NCBI RefSeq assembly: GCF_000348785.1
Contig: NC_020520.1
Coordinates: forward strand, 1,302,001-1,366,000
Direction of reading: 5' to 3'
DNA length: 64,000 nt
Origin: Ilumatobacter coccineus YM16-304
Lineage (GTDB): Bacteria > Actinomycetota > Acidimicrobiia > Acidimicrobiales > Ilumatobacteraceae
The position numbers were made by a program, and so were the translations under genes. The notes below the pieces were generated by a model that was given only the letters and a program-made list of their open reading frames with translations, ran no database searches and was not told where the DNA came from. The first letter of the stretch is position 1; the number at the start of each line of letters is the position of its first letter. Positions 7,594 through 47,463 of the stretch are shown here, in pieces.

Positions 7594-8259
7594 TCAGTCG
7601 GTCGTGGACTCGACCAGGGGATGGTCGAAGACGCTCAGCACGCCGCTCGAGATGGAGATCGAGACGTCGCCGGCGGCGTCGGTGACCTCGTTGCTCACGC
7701 CGAGCCCGACGACGGGTTCGAGTCGGATGCCGTCGAGGGGCCAGCGGACGCCACTGATCGACACGCCGTCACACGGGCGGCCGAGCACGAGGAGCGAGAG
7801 AGTCGATTCGGGTGTGAGCGAGAGTGTCCGGCGGCTCGGGCCGTGCATCACCTCGATGTGCTGGCCGTTCCACCAGGCGTCGATCCGGGGGATCGAGGTG
7901 GCGGCCGGCGCGGCGAGTGAGCCGATGGCGGCGATGGTGTGATCGAGGCGGTCGCCGCCACCGATCATGGTCAGCCAGGCGGGTGCCATCCCAGCGGCGA
8001 ACGCCACGGCGAGTTCGGTGTCGGTCTCGTTCTTGTCGGCGGGATGGCGGGAGATCGTGGCGTGCTCCTCGGCCCACGCCCGACCGTCGTCGCTGACCGA
8101 GTCGAGGTCACCGATCAGTCCGTTGGGTCGGAGACCGGCGGCGAGCGCGTGGTCGAATCCGCTGTCGACACCGAGCACGATGGCCGCGTCGGGGACGAGT
8201 GCGGCGACGCGCTCGGGGATCGGTGTGGCCCCGGTGACGATGACGATGTGGTCGTTCAC
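7594..8259 (-). CDS. thiN: Thiamine pyrophosphokinase
   Basis: Transfers pyrophosphate from ATP to thiamine to make thiamine diphosphate (EC 2.7.6.2), the final step of thiamine salvage. The 221-residue protein has the TPK signature GDLDSVS (residues 50-56) with metal-binding aspartates. It also has DKNETDTE (75-82) and GGGDRLDHTIA, all hallmarks of the catalytic domain. The C-terminal part is the beta-sandwich B1-binding domain. The GTG at 8259 follows an AGGAAG Shine-Dalgarno that sits at the 3' edge of the TPP riboswitch. It is the first gene of the uptake operon, so imported thiamine is trapped as the cofactor. Confidence 0.93.
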   Translation of the reverse strand: MNDHIVIVTGATPIPERVAALVPDAAIVLGVDSGFDHALAAGLRPNGLIGDLDSVSDDGRAWAEEHATISRHPADKNETDTELAVAFAAGMAPAWLTMIGGGDRLDHTIAAIGSLAAPAATSIPRIDAWWNGQHIEVMHGPSRRTLSLTPESTLSLLVLGRPCDGVSISGVRWPLDGIRLEPVVGLGVSNEVTDAAGDVSISISSGVLSVFDHPLVESTTD

Positions 8260-8267
8260 GTGCTTCT

Positions 8268-8368
8268 CGACTTCCTACGCCGGCATGATCCGGATCAGGT
8301 TCTCGGGTCGGTGACAGCGTGTCACCCTCTCAGCTCGTCGTTCCACGAACTCCCCGTCGGTTGGTTCT
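8268..8368 (-). promoter_or_regulatory. TPP (thi-box) riboswitch
   Basis: Read on the minus strand, the conserved TPP aptamer segments are in order. A P1/P2 strand with ACGGGGAG lies near 8359-8350, then CTGAGAGGG at 8333-8325, then a variable stem (TGACACGCTGTCA), then CCTGATCCGGATCATGCC at 8299-8282, followed by GGCGTAGGAAG. These match the thi-box consensus (CTGAGA, ACCTGATCTGGATAATGCCAGCG). The final AGGAAG is the Shine-Dalgarno of the pyrophosphokinase gene and forms part of the closing P1 region, much as in E. coli thiM. Control is therefore likely at translation initiation. The aptamer begins right after the TauE stop codon. Confidence 0.95.
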
Positions 8369-36020: not shown

Positions 36021-36070
36021 CGTTTTGCCCCGCAGATCCGTCACCGGTGACCGCTTCCAGGGGTAAAACG
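36021..36070. terminator. Nested stem-loop between lipase and M20 genes
   Basis: Outer arms CGTTTTGCCCC (36021-36031) and GGGGTAAAACG (36060-36070) pair over 11 bases, with one G-U in RNA. The loop holds a perfect 12-base palindrome GTCACCGGTGAC (36040-36051). The structure begins 3 bases after the lipase stop and ends 22 bases before the M20 start. A terminator or processing site is likely; there is no T-tract. Confidence 0.6.
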
Positions 36071-36091
36071 CCGTTGTGCGAAGCTGGGTCG

Positions 36092-37456
36092 ATGGACGAC
36101 ACCCAGCTCGGTCGACTCACCGACGAGACCGTCGAGCTCCTCCAGACGATGATCCGCAACGAGTGCGTCAACGACGGCACTCGCGAGTCCGGCTTCGAAT
36201 CACGCAACGCCGACGTGTTGCAGCAGATCATCTCCGTGCCCGGCGTCGACGTCGAACGCTTCGAGCCCGTCGAGGGTCGAGCGTCGATCGTCGGCCGCAT
36301 CGCCGGGTCCGATCCCGACGCACCGAGCCTGTGCCTGATGGGGCACACCGACGTGGTGCCGGTCCACCCGGAGGGATGGGTCAACGACCCGTTCGGTGGC
36401 GAACTCATCGACGGTGAGGTGTGGGGGCGCGGCGCGGTCGACATGCTCAACCTCACCGCGTCGATGGCCGTTGCGTTCCGCGAACTGGCCCGCGAGGCCG
36501 CAGCCGGGCGATTCCGACCGACCGGCGATCTCGTCTACTTCGGTGTCGCCGATGAGGAGTCGGGGAGCGCGCACGGGGCCCGCTGGATGGCCGACAACCA
36601 TCCCGACGCGATCCGCGCCGACTACGTGCTCACCGAGAACGGCGGCCTCCACTCCGGTCCGTCCGACGCCCCGTACGTCGGGGTCAACGTCGCCGAGAAG
36701 GGCGTCGCCTGGCGCAAGCTCACCGTGCGCGGCGAACCCGGCCACGGCTCCATGCCGTTCCGCAAAGACAACGCACTGATCAAGGCAGCAGGCGTCGTGC
36801 AGCGTCTCGCCGACTACCGCCCGGCACCGCGCTTCACCGAACTCTGGCGAACTCGGGTCGACACGCTCGGCCTGCCCGACGACATGAAGCAGCTCCTGCT
36901 CGACGAATCGGCCATCGACCAGTTCCTCGACGACCTGCCGTCGGCGCCCGCTGCCGCGCACCTGCACGCCTGCACGCACACCACGTTCTCGCCCAACCTC
37001 CTCGACGGCGGACACATGAAGACCAACGTGATCCCCGACCACGTCGAGATCAACGTCGACATCCGCACGCTCCCCGGCGACGGCCCCGAGGAGGTCGACG
37101 CCCACCTGCGTGATGCACTCGGCGACCTCGCCGACCACGTCGAGGTCGAGATCATCATCGACGACCCGGCATCGACGAGCCGCGTCGACACGCCGCTGTG
37201 GGACTCGATCGCCAAGGCCGTCAACGTGCCGTTCCCCACCGCCCGCCTCACCCCGCAATTGGTCGTCGGGTTCACCGACGCGCGCATCTACCGCGAGATG
37301 GGCGCCGTGGCCTACGGGGCCGGGCTGTTCAGCCCGTCACTCGACGCCGGGGAGTTCGGCAGCCGCTTCCACGGCCACAACGAACGCATCGACGTCGAGT
37401 CGCTCGCCCTCACCACCCGCCTCTGGCTCCACACCGCCACCGACCTCCTCACCTGA
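36092..37456 (+). CDS. M20-family metallopeptidase
   Basis: A 454-residue zinc peptidase or deacylase related to ArgE, DapE and dipeptidases. His85 and Asp87 lie in LMGHTDVVP, followed by the second metal Asp in EVWGRGAVDM, the general base Glu in GVADEESGS, and a C-terminal histidine in RFHGHNERID. The dimerisation domain includes VRGEPGHGSMPF. The substrate class (amino-acid acyl or dipeptide) cannot be decided. The ATG at 36092 begins right before the first helix; an upstream frame through the stem-loop is rejected. Confidence 0.9.
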   Translation: MDDTQLGRLTDETVELLQTMIRNECVNDGTRESGFESRNADVLQQIISVPGVDVERFEPVEGRASIVGRIAGSDPDAPSLCLMGHTDVVPVHPEGWVNDPFGGELIDGEVWGRGAVDMLNLTASMAVAFRELAREAAAGRFRPTGDLVYFGVADEESGSAHGARWMADNHPDAIRADYVLTENGGLHSGPSDAPYVGVNVAEKGVAWRKLTVRGEPGHGSMPFRKDNALIKAAGVVQRLADYRPAPRFTELWRTRVDTLGLPDDMKQLLLDESAIDQFLDDLPSAPAAAHLHACTHTTFSPNLLDGGHMKTNVIPDHVEINVDIRTLPGDGPEEVDAHLRDALGDLADHVEVEIIIDDPASTSRVDTPLWDSIAKAVNVPFPTARLTPQLVVGFTDARIYREMGAVAYGAGLFSPSLDAGEFGSRFHGHNERIDVESLALTTRLWLHTATDLLT

Positions 37457-37462
37457 GGCCGC

Positions 37463-37570
37463 ACAGGAACGCCGATGGCTGCGTTCCGTGAACTCGTCGT
37501 GTACGGCCCAGTACACGTCCTCGTCACGCGCCTTGCCCTCGGCGCCCCTGAGCAGCCTCAGCAAGCTGAC
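37463..37570 (+). repeat. Dispersed intergenic repeat, copy A
   Basis: This intergenic stretch resembles the element at 46504-46613. Shared blocks in the same order are CAGGAACGCCG, GCTGCGTTCCGTG, CTCGTCG, CCCAGT, GCGCCCCTGA and AGCAAGCTGA. A first hairpin GGAACGC...GCGTTCC and a second CTTGC...GCAAG are both kept, while the loops differ. It lies between the M20 stop (37456) and the stop of the minus-strand MBL gene (37620). As in the other copies, it is downstream of a minus-strand gene. The rest of the gap (37571-37619) shows nothing clear. Confidence 0.75.
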
Positions 37571-45063: not shown

Positions 45064-45828
45064 TCAAAGGCCGGGGAGTGCGAACCAGGCGTCGACCGCG
45101 CCCTGATCGCCGCGCAGGTCGACGGTGGACACGTCGGCGCGTCCCATCATCACGAGCAGCAGATCGCTCGACGTCCCCCGCAGTGCGGCGTCGCCGTGGC
45201 GGTGCACCGCCTCCATGCGGTACTCGCCGCCTTCGCCCCACACGATCCACTCACCGGCGCCACCCGGGACGTCGTCGTTGGTGCAGTGCAGGTGCAGGCT
45301 GACGTCCGGGACCGTCGCCTGCTCGCGGATCAACACCCGCGGCAGCATCATCTCGAAGAACTCACCGAGGCCCGCCGTGGCGAGCGTCGGGTCGAGCGAC
45401 GACTCGCCCGCCGTGGCGACTTCGGCGTCCCAGCGGTGGATCATCGTCTCGATGGCCAGACGTCGAGGCCACACCCACGCCTGTTGTTCGGCGGGGAACG
45501 GATGCCACGTGTCGTCGTCGGGCTTCGTCGCCCCGACCGCCTCGGCCAGGGCGTCGGCACCGTCTCGCAGCCAGGCTGCCAGGTCGTCGCCCGACGCATC
45601 GGGTTGCGGTTTCGGGCCGTCGAGCGAGGTCGGGGGAGCAGCGTGTCGAATCGCCTGCGTGGCCCACCGATGCACGCCGCCGGTGTGCACCAGCAGCGCG
45701 CGCAGATCCCAGTCGGGGCACGCCGTGATCGGTGCATCGAGCGGGCCGGATTCGGCGCAGGCAGCGAGCCGATCGACGTCGTCACGAAGCGCGGCGACGT
45801 ACTCGGCGGGGGACACATCAGGGTTCAC
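45064..45828 (-). CDS. TIGR03083-type (maleylpyruvate isomerase-like, DinB fold) protein
   Basis: A 254-residue protein: PAEYVAALRDDVDRLAACAES and CPDWDLRALLVHTGGVHRWATQAI with the metal-binding His, then WPRRLAIETMIHRWDAE with the second His. These are the marks of the actinobacterial TIGR03083/MDMPI family, a DinB-like four-helix bundle that in some members uses mycothiol. The longer ATG start at 45855 would run into the divergent nfuA start. The GTG at 45828, with TACCGT ending 8 bases upstream, is preferred. Confidence 0.87.
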   Translation of the reverse strand: MNPDVSPAEYVAALRDDVDRLAACAESGPLDAPITACPDWDLRALLVHTGGVHRWATQAIRHAAPPTSLDGPKPQPDASGDDLAAWLRDGADALAEAVGATKPDDDTWHPFPAEQQAWVWPRRLAIETMIHRWDAEVATAGESSLDPTLATAGLGEFFEMMLPRVLIREQATVPDVSLHLHCTNDDVPGGAGEWIVWGEGGEYRMEAVHRHGDAALRGTSSDLLLVMMGRADVSTVDLRGDQGAVDAWFALPGL

Positions 45829-45836
45829 AGTTCGCG

Positions 45837-45846
45837 ACGGTAGCCT
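45837..45846. promoter_or_regulatory. Divergent promoter with overlapping -10 elements
   Basis: The ten bases ACGGTAGCCT contain a plus-strand -10 (TAGCCT, 45841-45846, 7 bases before the nfuA ATG at 45854). They also contain a minus-strand -10 (TACCGT, 45842-45837, 8 bases before the TIGR03083 GTG at 45828). Both use the same central TA. With only 25 bases between the start codons, the two genes must be transcribed from this shared element as leaderless messages. Overlapping bidirectional promoters of this kind are known in other bacteria. Confidence 0.7.
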
Positions 45847-45853
45847 TTTCACC

Positions 45854-46498
45854 ATGAGTCCTCTCGAAGCATTGGCGGCGGAATCTGGTGACTCCAACCA
45901 GAGTGAGCCGATCATCTCGGTCACGCCCGAGGCCATCGAGAACCTGCGCGAACTCCGTGACGACGAGCCCGACGGCGACCAGCTCGGCCTGCGTCTCGCG
46001 ATCGCCTCGAAGCCCGGCGAAGACTTCCGCTACGACCTGTCGTTCGAAGAATTCCTCAAAGCGGCGTTCACCGACGAGGTCCGCACGCACGACGGCATGA
46101 AGATCATCATTCCTGGTGACGACGTCGAACTGCTCACCGGCGCCACGCTCGACTACTCCACGGCGCAGGGTCTGGTCATCCGCAACCCGAACCGTCCCTC
46201 CGCCCCGAGCGTCGAAGGTCTCACCAGCGACGACGAACTCTCGGCCGAAGTCGAAGCGCTCGTCTCGACCGAGGTCAACCCGGCGCTCGCCGCGCACGGC
46301 GGGTTCGTCACCTACGTCGGCCACGACGGCGAAGGCACCGCCTACCTCACCATGGGCGGCGGCTGCCACGGCTGCTCGATGAGCAAGATGACCATGCTCG
46401 ACGGCGTGCAGACCATGCTCGTCGACGCCATCGAAGCGATCGAACGAGTCAAAGACCTCACCGATCACTCCACCGGCGAATCCCCCTTCTATTCGTGA
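45854..46498 (+). CDS. nfuA: NfuA-like iron-sulfur carrier
   Basis: Scaffold/carrier that delivers Fe-S clusters. The 214-residue protein has an N-terminal A-type-like domain (VTPEAIENLRELRDDEPD, then GLRLAI and KIIIPGDDVELLTGATLDY) lacking the usual three cysteines. The C-terminal NifU domain carries the CHGC motif (Cys171, Cys174) and VKDLTDHSTGESPFYS at the end, which is the classic NfuA terminus. The degenerate A-domain plus NifU domain is the NfuA architecture. TAGCCT ends 7 bases before the ATG at 45854, fitting a leaderless start. Confidence 0.93.
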   Translation: MSPLEALAAESGDSNQSEPIISVTPEAIENLRELRDDEPDGDQLGLRLAIASKPGEDFRYDLSFEEFLKAAFTDEVRTHDGMKIIIPGDDVELLTGATLDYSTAQGLVIRNPNRPSAPSVEGLTSDDELSAEVEALVSTEVNPALAAHGGFVTYVGHDGEGTAYLTMGGGCHGCSMSKMTMLDGVQTMLVDAIEAIERVKDLTDHSTGESPFYS

Positions 46499-46503
46499 CG
46501 ACG

Positions 46504-46690
46504 ACCAGGAACGCCGCTCGCTGCGTTCCGTGTGCTCGTCGCTGACGCCCAGTCACTCTCCCTCGCAACGCTCCTTGCGAGCGACGCCCCTGATCGCCGT
46601 CAGCAAGCTGAACCGACGCGCCGAGCGTGAGTCGTCGCGGGTGAGTTGTCGAGGGGGAGTTCTGGACCGGCCGGGTTTTACCTCTTGACC
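46504..46690 (+). repeat. Dispersed intergenic repeat, copy B
   Basis: The longest copy of the element. It starts with a hairpin GGAACGC...GCGTTCC and contains a 41-base block at 46573-46613 identical to 47362-47402 (copy C). The second stem CTTGC...GCAAG has an inner GACG/CGTC. Similarity with copy C continues through CCGAGCGTGAGTCG, GAGTTCTGG and CGGCC up to ACCTCTTG, which encodes the last residues Lys-Arg and the stop of the minus-strand gene. It fills the whole 179-base gap after nfuA. Confidence 0.85.
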
Positions 46691-47298
46691 GAACCTTGGG
46701 AACGGACCTGCTCCTGACACCAATCGAGTCGGCTTTGCAAGTCGATCTTGAGCTCGGATTCCTTCTCGGCGAGGCTGGCTTCGGTGCGTTCAAGAAGACT
46801 CTCCAAGTGATCGACGACGGGGGTCAGAGCTATGCCCGTCGGCGGGAGCTCTTCGAGGGTGGAAAGACTGACTACGACGGGTTCAGAATCTGACCGTCCC
46901 GAGAGCAGGATGTTCACCTCTCCGCCGAAGCCATCGTGGTCGGCACGGTGAGCGATCCGCCTGCTCGCGTGGCGAAGGAGTTCCTGGTGCATCGCATCGG
47001 ACCCGTAGTCCCAGCCGTCGAGTAGATCGTGGAGCCGAGCGCGTTGTCCCGTTCCCGTAGCCGCTTTCCCGGAAGTGAACGATCGGCGATATCTAATGAG
47101 TCCGCTTGTCCAGATGGAGCCGACGAGCAGTTCGCGATCGAGTCCCGGTAGCCCGTCGGGCCATTCGGCGTCGAGGGCTTCGCATGACTCCAGCCATCGA
47201 AAACAGCCGTGGCTCTCAATCAGGTCGGACTGCATAGCGAACAGATCGAGCAACTCCGCCGCCCTTGGCCCGTCGTACTCGAACATCTCGCCGGTCAC
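46678..47298 (-). CDS. Accessory protein of unknown function between repeat copies
   Basis: A 206-residue protein with no family I recognise. It has a mixed N-terminal part with several Trp and Tyr residues (HGCFRWLESCEALDAEWPDG) and a C-terminal coiled-coil-like helix, HLESLLERTEASLAEKESEL. The base composition is poorer in G+C than its neighbours, and codon third positions include many A/T. It is bounded on both sides by repeats B and C, and its last codons (Lys-Arg-stop) belong to the repeat. Start GTG 47298 or ATG 47286; neither has a good Shine-Dalgarno. Confidence 0.65.
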   Translation of the reverse strand: MTGEMFEYDGPRAAELLDLFAMQSDLIESHGCFRWLESCEALDAEWPDGLPGLDRELLVGSIWTSGLIRYRRSFTSGKAATGTGQRARLHDLLDGWDYGSDAMHQELLRHASRRIAHRADHDGFGGEVNILLSGRSDSEPVVVSLSTLEELPPTGIALTPVVDHLESLLERTEASLAEKESELKIDLQSRLDWCQEQVRSQGSVKR

Positions 47299-47350
47299 GA
47301 TCGAACGGTATCAGTGTCATTCTCTGCCGGAACCCAGATGTTCGCTAGTC

Positions 47351-47463
47351 AGTCTCTCGCGCCTTGCGAGCGACGCCCCTGATCGCCGTCAGCAAGCTGA
47401 ACTGACGAGCCGAGCGTGAGTCGGCGAGGGCGAATTCTGGGCTGGCCGAACATCACCTCTTGG
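47351..47463 (+). repeat. Dispersed intergenic repeat, copy C
   Basis: A partial copy lacking the first hairpin. It begins near 47351, shares a perfect 41-base block (47362-47402) with copy B, then diverges gradually while keeping CCGAGCGTGAGTCG, a GAATTCTGG/GAGTTCTGG block and CGGCC/TGGCC to the CACCTCTTG that encodes the Lys-Arg-stop end of the DUF2277 gene. It is in the same orientation as copies A and B. The rest of the gap between 47299 and 47350 shows nothing clear. Confidence 0.82.

Follow-up and report, generated by a model that had tools for sequence, protein, structure and literature searches.

Three similar stretches, here called A, B and C, recur within the 64,000 nucleotides of the Ilumatobacter coccineus YM16-304 genome analysed in this study (the window), which raises the question of what kind of element they represent and how it came to lie at the ends of genes. 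The reading we favour, to which we give a rough probability of 0.45 as a whole and which we offer tentatively, is that A and B belong to a family of non-autonomous, strand-specific mobile hairpins inserting by a logic like that of IS200 and REP elements, with C a half copy.

Copies of the element and their fold

A first-pass annotation of the sequence described three copies in the same orientation. Similar stretches in minus orientation do lie at about these places, however C comprises only half of the element, duplicated together with the flank of B (Table 1). The perfect 41-nt block reported as common to B and C is present, and the duplication (B 46569–46647 against C 47358–47436) carries about 36 nt of the B flank along with the half element. 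Distal half copies cut mid-core, alone or in tandem with full copies, were seen at L002 (window 47358–47400), L006 and L009, and in the upstream flanks of L026, L058, L061, L077 and L095.

Table 1. Features of the repeat in the window (numbered from its first nucleotide), and loci holding the TIR-bordered form of the core.
Feature	Position or loci	Strand	Basis
Copy A, full hairpin element	37451..37560	- (folding strand is minus)	R2 99.3 bits, E 1.9e-25; R1 112.6 bits
A distal border, TCAG-CTTG-CTGA on the folding strand (TCAG, 4-nt linker, CTGA arm)	37558..37569	-	motif search (match at 37558) and spacing test
Open frame, M20-peptidase-like by reading; TGA stop 37454-37456 inside A outer stem	36047..37456	+	ORF list, stop offset
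Copy B, full hairpin element	46493..46602	-	R2 85.3 bits, E 1.7e-21; R1 97.1 bits
B distal border, TCAG-CTTG-CTGA on the folding strand	46600..46611	-	motif search and spacing test
Open frame with a C-terminus read as NifU-like, its true start probably further downstream; TGA stop 46496-46498 inside B outer stem	45125..46498	+	ORF list, stop offset
Copy C, distal half of the element only	about 47358..47400	-	sequence comparison; no R2 match at E<=1
C flank common to the B flank (46612-46647), piece of a local duplication	47401..47436	.	91% over 79 nt, 789 nt apart
TIR-bordered MITE form	L039, L041, L042, L052, L054, L084, L086, L285-L301, L303-L309		

In the genome holding the window (4,830,181 bases, one contig) a DNA search found the repeat at 12 places, and R1, a model built from eight full copies, matched 17 places at E≤1 and 13 at E below 1e-7. 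A and B sit in the alignments behind both R1 and a second model, R2, hence their scores are partly by construction; R1 also detects copies outside its own training set, and the similarity of A and B to the model is far above chance. With R2 the plus strand reached only 16.0 bits at A and 17.2 bits at B, against the minus-strand scores of Table 1. Copies inside this genome have diverged from each other, except for one near-identical pair (L026 and L027).

The search of the genome and its relatives that had been proposed at the outset thus recovered more than the original three copies, with covariation among them. Matches at E≤0.001 occurred in 15 of 60 related genomes, comprising nine of the ten of the genus (all but G007), four others of the family and two others of the order. 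With R2, matches were found in at least 47 of 395 genomes of the class, and at least 29 of 396 genomes of the phylum carry a related core, mostly within inverted-repeat MITEs; the genus and family, class and phylum counts are all lower bounds, owing to stricter filters and, for class and phylum, to scoring with nine candidates each. Relatives of the core occur across the actinobacterial phylum. Core-pattern matches in named genomes came to 13 stretches, all from Ilumatobacter or Ilumatobacteraceae MAGs. Counts given below per 73 copies refer to 90 matches minus 12 TIR-form loci and 5 duplicates or half-chimeras; 72 copies had enough flank for the terminator count, and the left-hairpin count kept 74.

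The element, about 110 nt long, folds as one long interrupted hairpin. In order, this consists of an outer stem, an internal loop, an inner stem, an AAG/A loop, a short stem bearing two bulges (GAA and a single base), a symmetric GA-N-GA/GA-N-GA loop and an apical hairpin, with the core conserved and the base of the stem variable. Two hairpins drawn earlier as the conserved fold, GGAACGC/GCGTTCC and CTTGC/GCAAG, do not describe the family, and the first pairing is present only in some copies. Those hairpins had been taken to suggest selection on structure; such selection is supported, though for the long hairpin and not for them.

Covariation in the stems is strong. In an alignment of 88 distinct sequences, fitted to R1 and thereby favouring structure, 92.0% of cells pair in the hairpin structure (shuffled mean 63.2%), two-sided changes fill 818 cells versus 247.4 when shuffled, and the covariation score of 0.653 (0.166 shuffled) is lowered to 0.051–0.099 by sliding the partners. 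Counting the pairs that show any two-sided change says little, since shuffles reach 29.5 against the 33 of 37 observed. A MAFFT alignment of eight copies, not fitted to R1, has two-sided changes in 21 of 35 predicted pairs.

Cells of the symmetric loop read G·A (68 of 90), A·G (69), then C-G (66) or G-C (21), then G·A (78) and A·G (69). Over the stems scored there are 221 G·T versus 40 A·C cells, a count which leaves out two structure pairs (columns 16–167 and 27–151). The core helix alone reverses this trend (17 G·T, 25 A·C); 15 of these A·C cells fall at a single position, at which the pair gives way to a second loop type (CAAGGAA...TGACGCAG). Together, the tandem G·A mismatches and the excess of G·T over A·C point to the strand reading CAAGG...AACGCAG as the folding strand, as RNA or single-stranded DNA alike.

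The covariation, the tandem G·A motif and the G·T excess on one strand would also suit a structured non-coding RNA, antisense to the touched gene and carried by several kinds of mobile element, in which the core serves a role of the RNA itself (protein binding, RNA stability or control of the element), and a core kept in two element types with different borders (see below) fits such an RNA as well. Single-stranded DNA would, however, give identical signs, and the folding strand has no constant upstream gene or spacing, such a gene being either absent or at varying distance. Rfam offers no counterpart either: the only match in the window is a TPP riboswitch (8255–8365, minus strand, 60.5 bits) away from A, B and C, two sets of eight loci searched at permissive thresholds gave chance-level matches only, and an Rfam family was rejected since no copy matched at a gathering score. 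We regard an RNA of this kind as a minority explanation, and an unlikely one.

Stop codons, empty sites and insertion borders

All copies had been described as lying after the stop of a minus-strand gene. The nearest minus-strand stop to A is about 60 nt away, and the fixed neighbour is instead the stop codon of a plus-strand gene, located in the outer stem at both A and B (Table 1). The folding strand is antisense to the touched gene, and this opposite-strand stop codon is constant across the family: of 73 TIR-less copies, 65 have the end of a coding-like opposite-strand frame no more than 40 nt from the element edge and 55 no more than 6 nt, and in 24 the stop codon starts on the first paired base itself (coding status was judged solely from codon-position GC). 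The genes touched are unrelated to each other. Convergent genes can each bear their own copy, as inverted element pairs lie about 80–100 nt apart between such genes in G005:C461, G002:C96, G005:C366 and G004:C159 (L033, L032, L045 and L035).

In 24 of 72 copies a separate terminator-like hairpin with a T tract lies no more than 160 nt beyond the element, versus 2 in a within-gene control that some loci were too short to enter, hence the element is not itself a terminator. An intrinsic terminator was also rejected on the T tract adjoining the element, as T4 occurs within 12 nt in only 1 of 73 copies in gene sense and 2 of 73 on the folding strand.

Among the matches listed, the element was present at one of 14 purH orthologues (35 genomes matched) and one of 13 rplO orthologues (37 genomes matched), the carrier being the window's genome in both cases. 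At 14 further genes, including those at A and B, relatives among the matches listed mostly lacked the insertion and kept an intact stop codon. One exact full/empty pair was read. On the folding strand the empty site in G004 reads ...CAACCCCTCAGACGCG..., and the full site in G006 reads ...CAGCCCCTCAG TT CTGAGGCC-(hairpin)-GCGGCCTCAG ACGCG..., so that the element lies between two CCTCAG copies and begins TT-CTGAGG. This pair shows insertion at TCAG. Its target is CTGAG along the gene, inside an open frame, where the element brings a new stop codon. With the empty sites in relatives and this exact pair, the REP-like mobile element suggested by the first-pass annotation is the closest of its readings to the evidence.

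The borders of that one pair fit insertion of the IS200/IS605 type, 3' of a fixed short site which is kept, and the TCAG spacing given below suggests the same for part of the other copies. Many other copies read TCAG-N4-CTGA...hairpin...TCAG, and the near-identical stretch of L026 and L027 runs from TCAG to CTCAGC. In 14 of the 37 CTGA-armed copies TCAG precedes the arm by exactly 4 nt (other linker lengths, 0–2); these 14 come from five genomes, nine from the window's genome and five from G009, G005, G002 and G027, and the remaining 23 have no TCAG at 4 nt. Left hairpins of at least 5 bp were found in 16 of 74 copies versus about 4.8 with swapped flanks, and of at least 4 bp in 23 of 74 (swapped-flank mean 12.3, maximum 19, 200 draws).

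Insertion into a pre-existing terminator hairpin was rejected, as no matching hairpin was seen by eye at the stop codon of the listed purH and rplO empty sites, except rplO of G009. At that locus (L141, rplO 3' end) the sequence reads TGATTCGACTCGAATCA and then turns AT-rich near the contig end; it was not trusted, and the contig is possibly chimeric.

The tight spacing to stop codons could alternatively reflect a host-useful 3'-UTR element placed there by selection, for example one slowing ribosomes at the gene end or blocking convergent transcription, and a reduction of translation by REPs is reported where the stop codon is no more than 15 nt away, according to the accessible part of PMC12306157. 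Against this, most relatives have no element at the same genes, the touched genes are unrelated, the element is not a terminator on either count above, and the insertion of the exact pair fell inside an open frame. We consider a host function of this sort improbable.

Known mobile hairpins, Y1 genes and the TIR-bordered form

Nothing describing this element was returned by a literature search whose coverage excluded most subscription papers, and it is apparently uncatalogued. In our view it belongs with the hairpin-type non-autonomous mobile elements, as a new form of them. Like IS200/IS605 elements such as IS608, it has a one-strand hairpin, keeps its site in the left flank and carries, on the 5' side of the hairpin, a sequence which pairs with both the target and the right end; a guide in this position recognises the IS608 site, which is not lost from the left flank (PMC5934647, accessible part). 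In contrast to these elements, no transposase was found with the element described here, its arm and site are fully complementary, often over more than 4 nt and varying by copy, and its hairpin of about 100 nt has a conserved, elaborate core.

REPs are 20–40-nt palindromes with a GTAG or CGTC tag at one end, as defined in the accessible part of PMC3733652. Like the REPs of REP/RAYT (TnpA_REP) systems, the element is palindromic, lies near gene ends and forms inverted pairs between convergent genes, and Y1 proteins of the REP-associated kind are encoded by 8 of the 11 family genomes that have TIR-less copies. It differs in its length of about 110 nt (model length 110–112), in having no consistent tag (GTAG at the folding-strand 5' foot in 2 of 73 copies, CGTC in 7 of 73) and in that the Y1 genes read are flanked by other palindromes, not by this repeat.

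Y1 (PF01797) matches were found in 11 of 36 family genomes searched, including the eight just mentioned, however this association is confounded by the kinship of the genomes. G008, G009 and G025 have the element and no Y1, and G007 and G024 have Y1 with no element found. Y1 genes were rejected as carriers, as 20 regions around them held no element (best R2 match 16.7 bits, E 0.037) and those read by eye, 14 among the matches listed, are bordered by other palindromes.

These palindromes are simple and perfect (cores such as GTGTCAGACAC, GGTGCCAGGCACC and GGGGTCAGGCCCC) and border Y1/RAYT-type genes at L312, L317, L318, L319, L321, L325 and L326, with the TGA stop of the RAYT gene itself inside the palindrome in several cases. 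Such palindromes also follow housekeeping stop codons at empty sites (L200, L206, L241, L250 and L262). Two Y1-type genes, L310 (G000:3742074-3742403) and L315 (G002:C235:830-1114), lie near the 3' end of a gene whose orthologues in G001, G004 and G006 carry the element (L062, L047 and L036), a gene end which is possibly a shared hot spot.

Most loci read outside the family hold the core within inverted repeats starting (C)TAGTG (Table 1); the exceptions are L387, where none was seen, L302, truncated by the end of its contig, and the TIR-less L284 (G198, same family). With its (C)TAGTG...CACTA(G) inverted repeats this form in other actinobacteria resembles TA-target MITEs with IS630/Tc1-like borders. 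Of 35 such loci, 16 have an end at the stop codon of a gene (the right side in 11, the left in 7), thus without the fixed orientation of the TIR-less form. As the borders begin TA-GTG, an element entering a TAG stop codon at its TA would recreate the stop. The copies in the window and other TIR-less copies differ in having no such borders, and no parent transposon was found: among the matches listed there was no end pair about a kilobase apart in G260, G212, G016 or G048, and the frames of three TIR-form loci read by eye contained none. Phage and plasmid records gave no match to one MITE-form query.

An attC-like recombination site had also been suggested. Integron attC sites carry R''/R' boxes (RYYYAAC...GTTRRRY) at the base of the stem. 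The element shares with them a long imperfect hairpin after genes and one special strand, but its conserved core and variable base are the reverse of attC, and attC was rejected, with R-box-like boxes at both ends in 1 of 73 copies on each strand. A selenocysteine or readthrough element was rejected, as the distance from stop codon to core and the frame both vary.

A possible route of insertion

If A and B are mobile hairpins, the element would move as single-stranded DNA and insert 3' of a TCAG-like tetranucleotide that pairs with its CTGA arm, following the guide and cleavage-site logic of IS200/IS605 and REP elements, and the terminal TCAG would pair with the same arm to form the outer stem. 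For REPs, the enzyme acts on one hairpin strand and the tag is proposed as the guide (PMC8266576, accessible part). Along the touched gene the target would read CTGA, and insertions would survive mainly where CTGA holds the stop codon, so that TGA stop codons would be tolerated, in one orientation only. Where most stops are TGA, harmless CTGA sites are stop codons, which would account for both the abutment to stop codons and the fixed orientation without any host function.

Distal arms matching gene-specific coding sequence would be made at insertion, or later by hairpin-templated correction. At L072 (serS of G005) the distal arm is complementary to native coding sequence, and L036 and L060 combine similar cores with unrelated arms. 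Both observations count against a fixed guide and suggest that the arms must be fitted to the target. Counting against the insertion model as a whole are the three element-bearing genomes with no Y1 gene, the two with Y1 and no element found, the Y1 regions in which no element was found, the single exact full/empty pair, the 23 CTGA-armed copies with no TCAG at 4 nt, the same core kept in TIR-bordered MITEs and a core larger and more elaborate than a Y1 substrate would seem to need.

It is quite improbable that the paired changes themselves arose mainly from hairpin-templated mutation (quasi-palindrome correction) and not from selection on the fold, since conserved internal mismatches and bulges, which such a process would remove, persist across genera and the asymmetry of wobble pairs is specific to one strand, although outer arms tracking gene-specific coding sequence (L072, L059, L081 and L053) and half copies or partial repeats beside full copies are in its favour, and templated mutation may explain the outer arms, not the core.

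It may also be that a folded single strand, DNA or RNA, is the unit conserved phylum-wide, with an arm complementary to the gene end it entered, insertion being guided by the target or copying it and the CTGA target making stop codons a safe harbour. We think this proposal unlikely to hold in full.

The related core in inverted-repeat MITEs over the phylum raises the question of the role of the core and of the enzyme that reads it, and if the folded strand is an RNA, it would be a widespread unannotated one. If A and B are instead mobile hairpins of the kind we favour, they would add a large class with an elaborate fold to the bacterial mobile elements of hairpin type, and a target reading CTGA along the gene would give a simple reason for such elements at stop codons. 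Their arms would then log target complementarity copy by copy, a natural series for the base-pair-guided insertion that has been re-programmed by hand in IS608.
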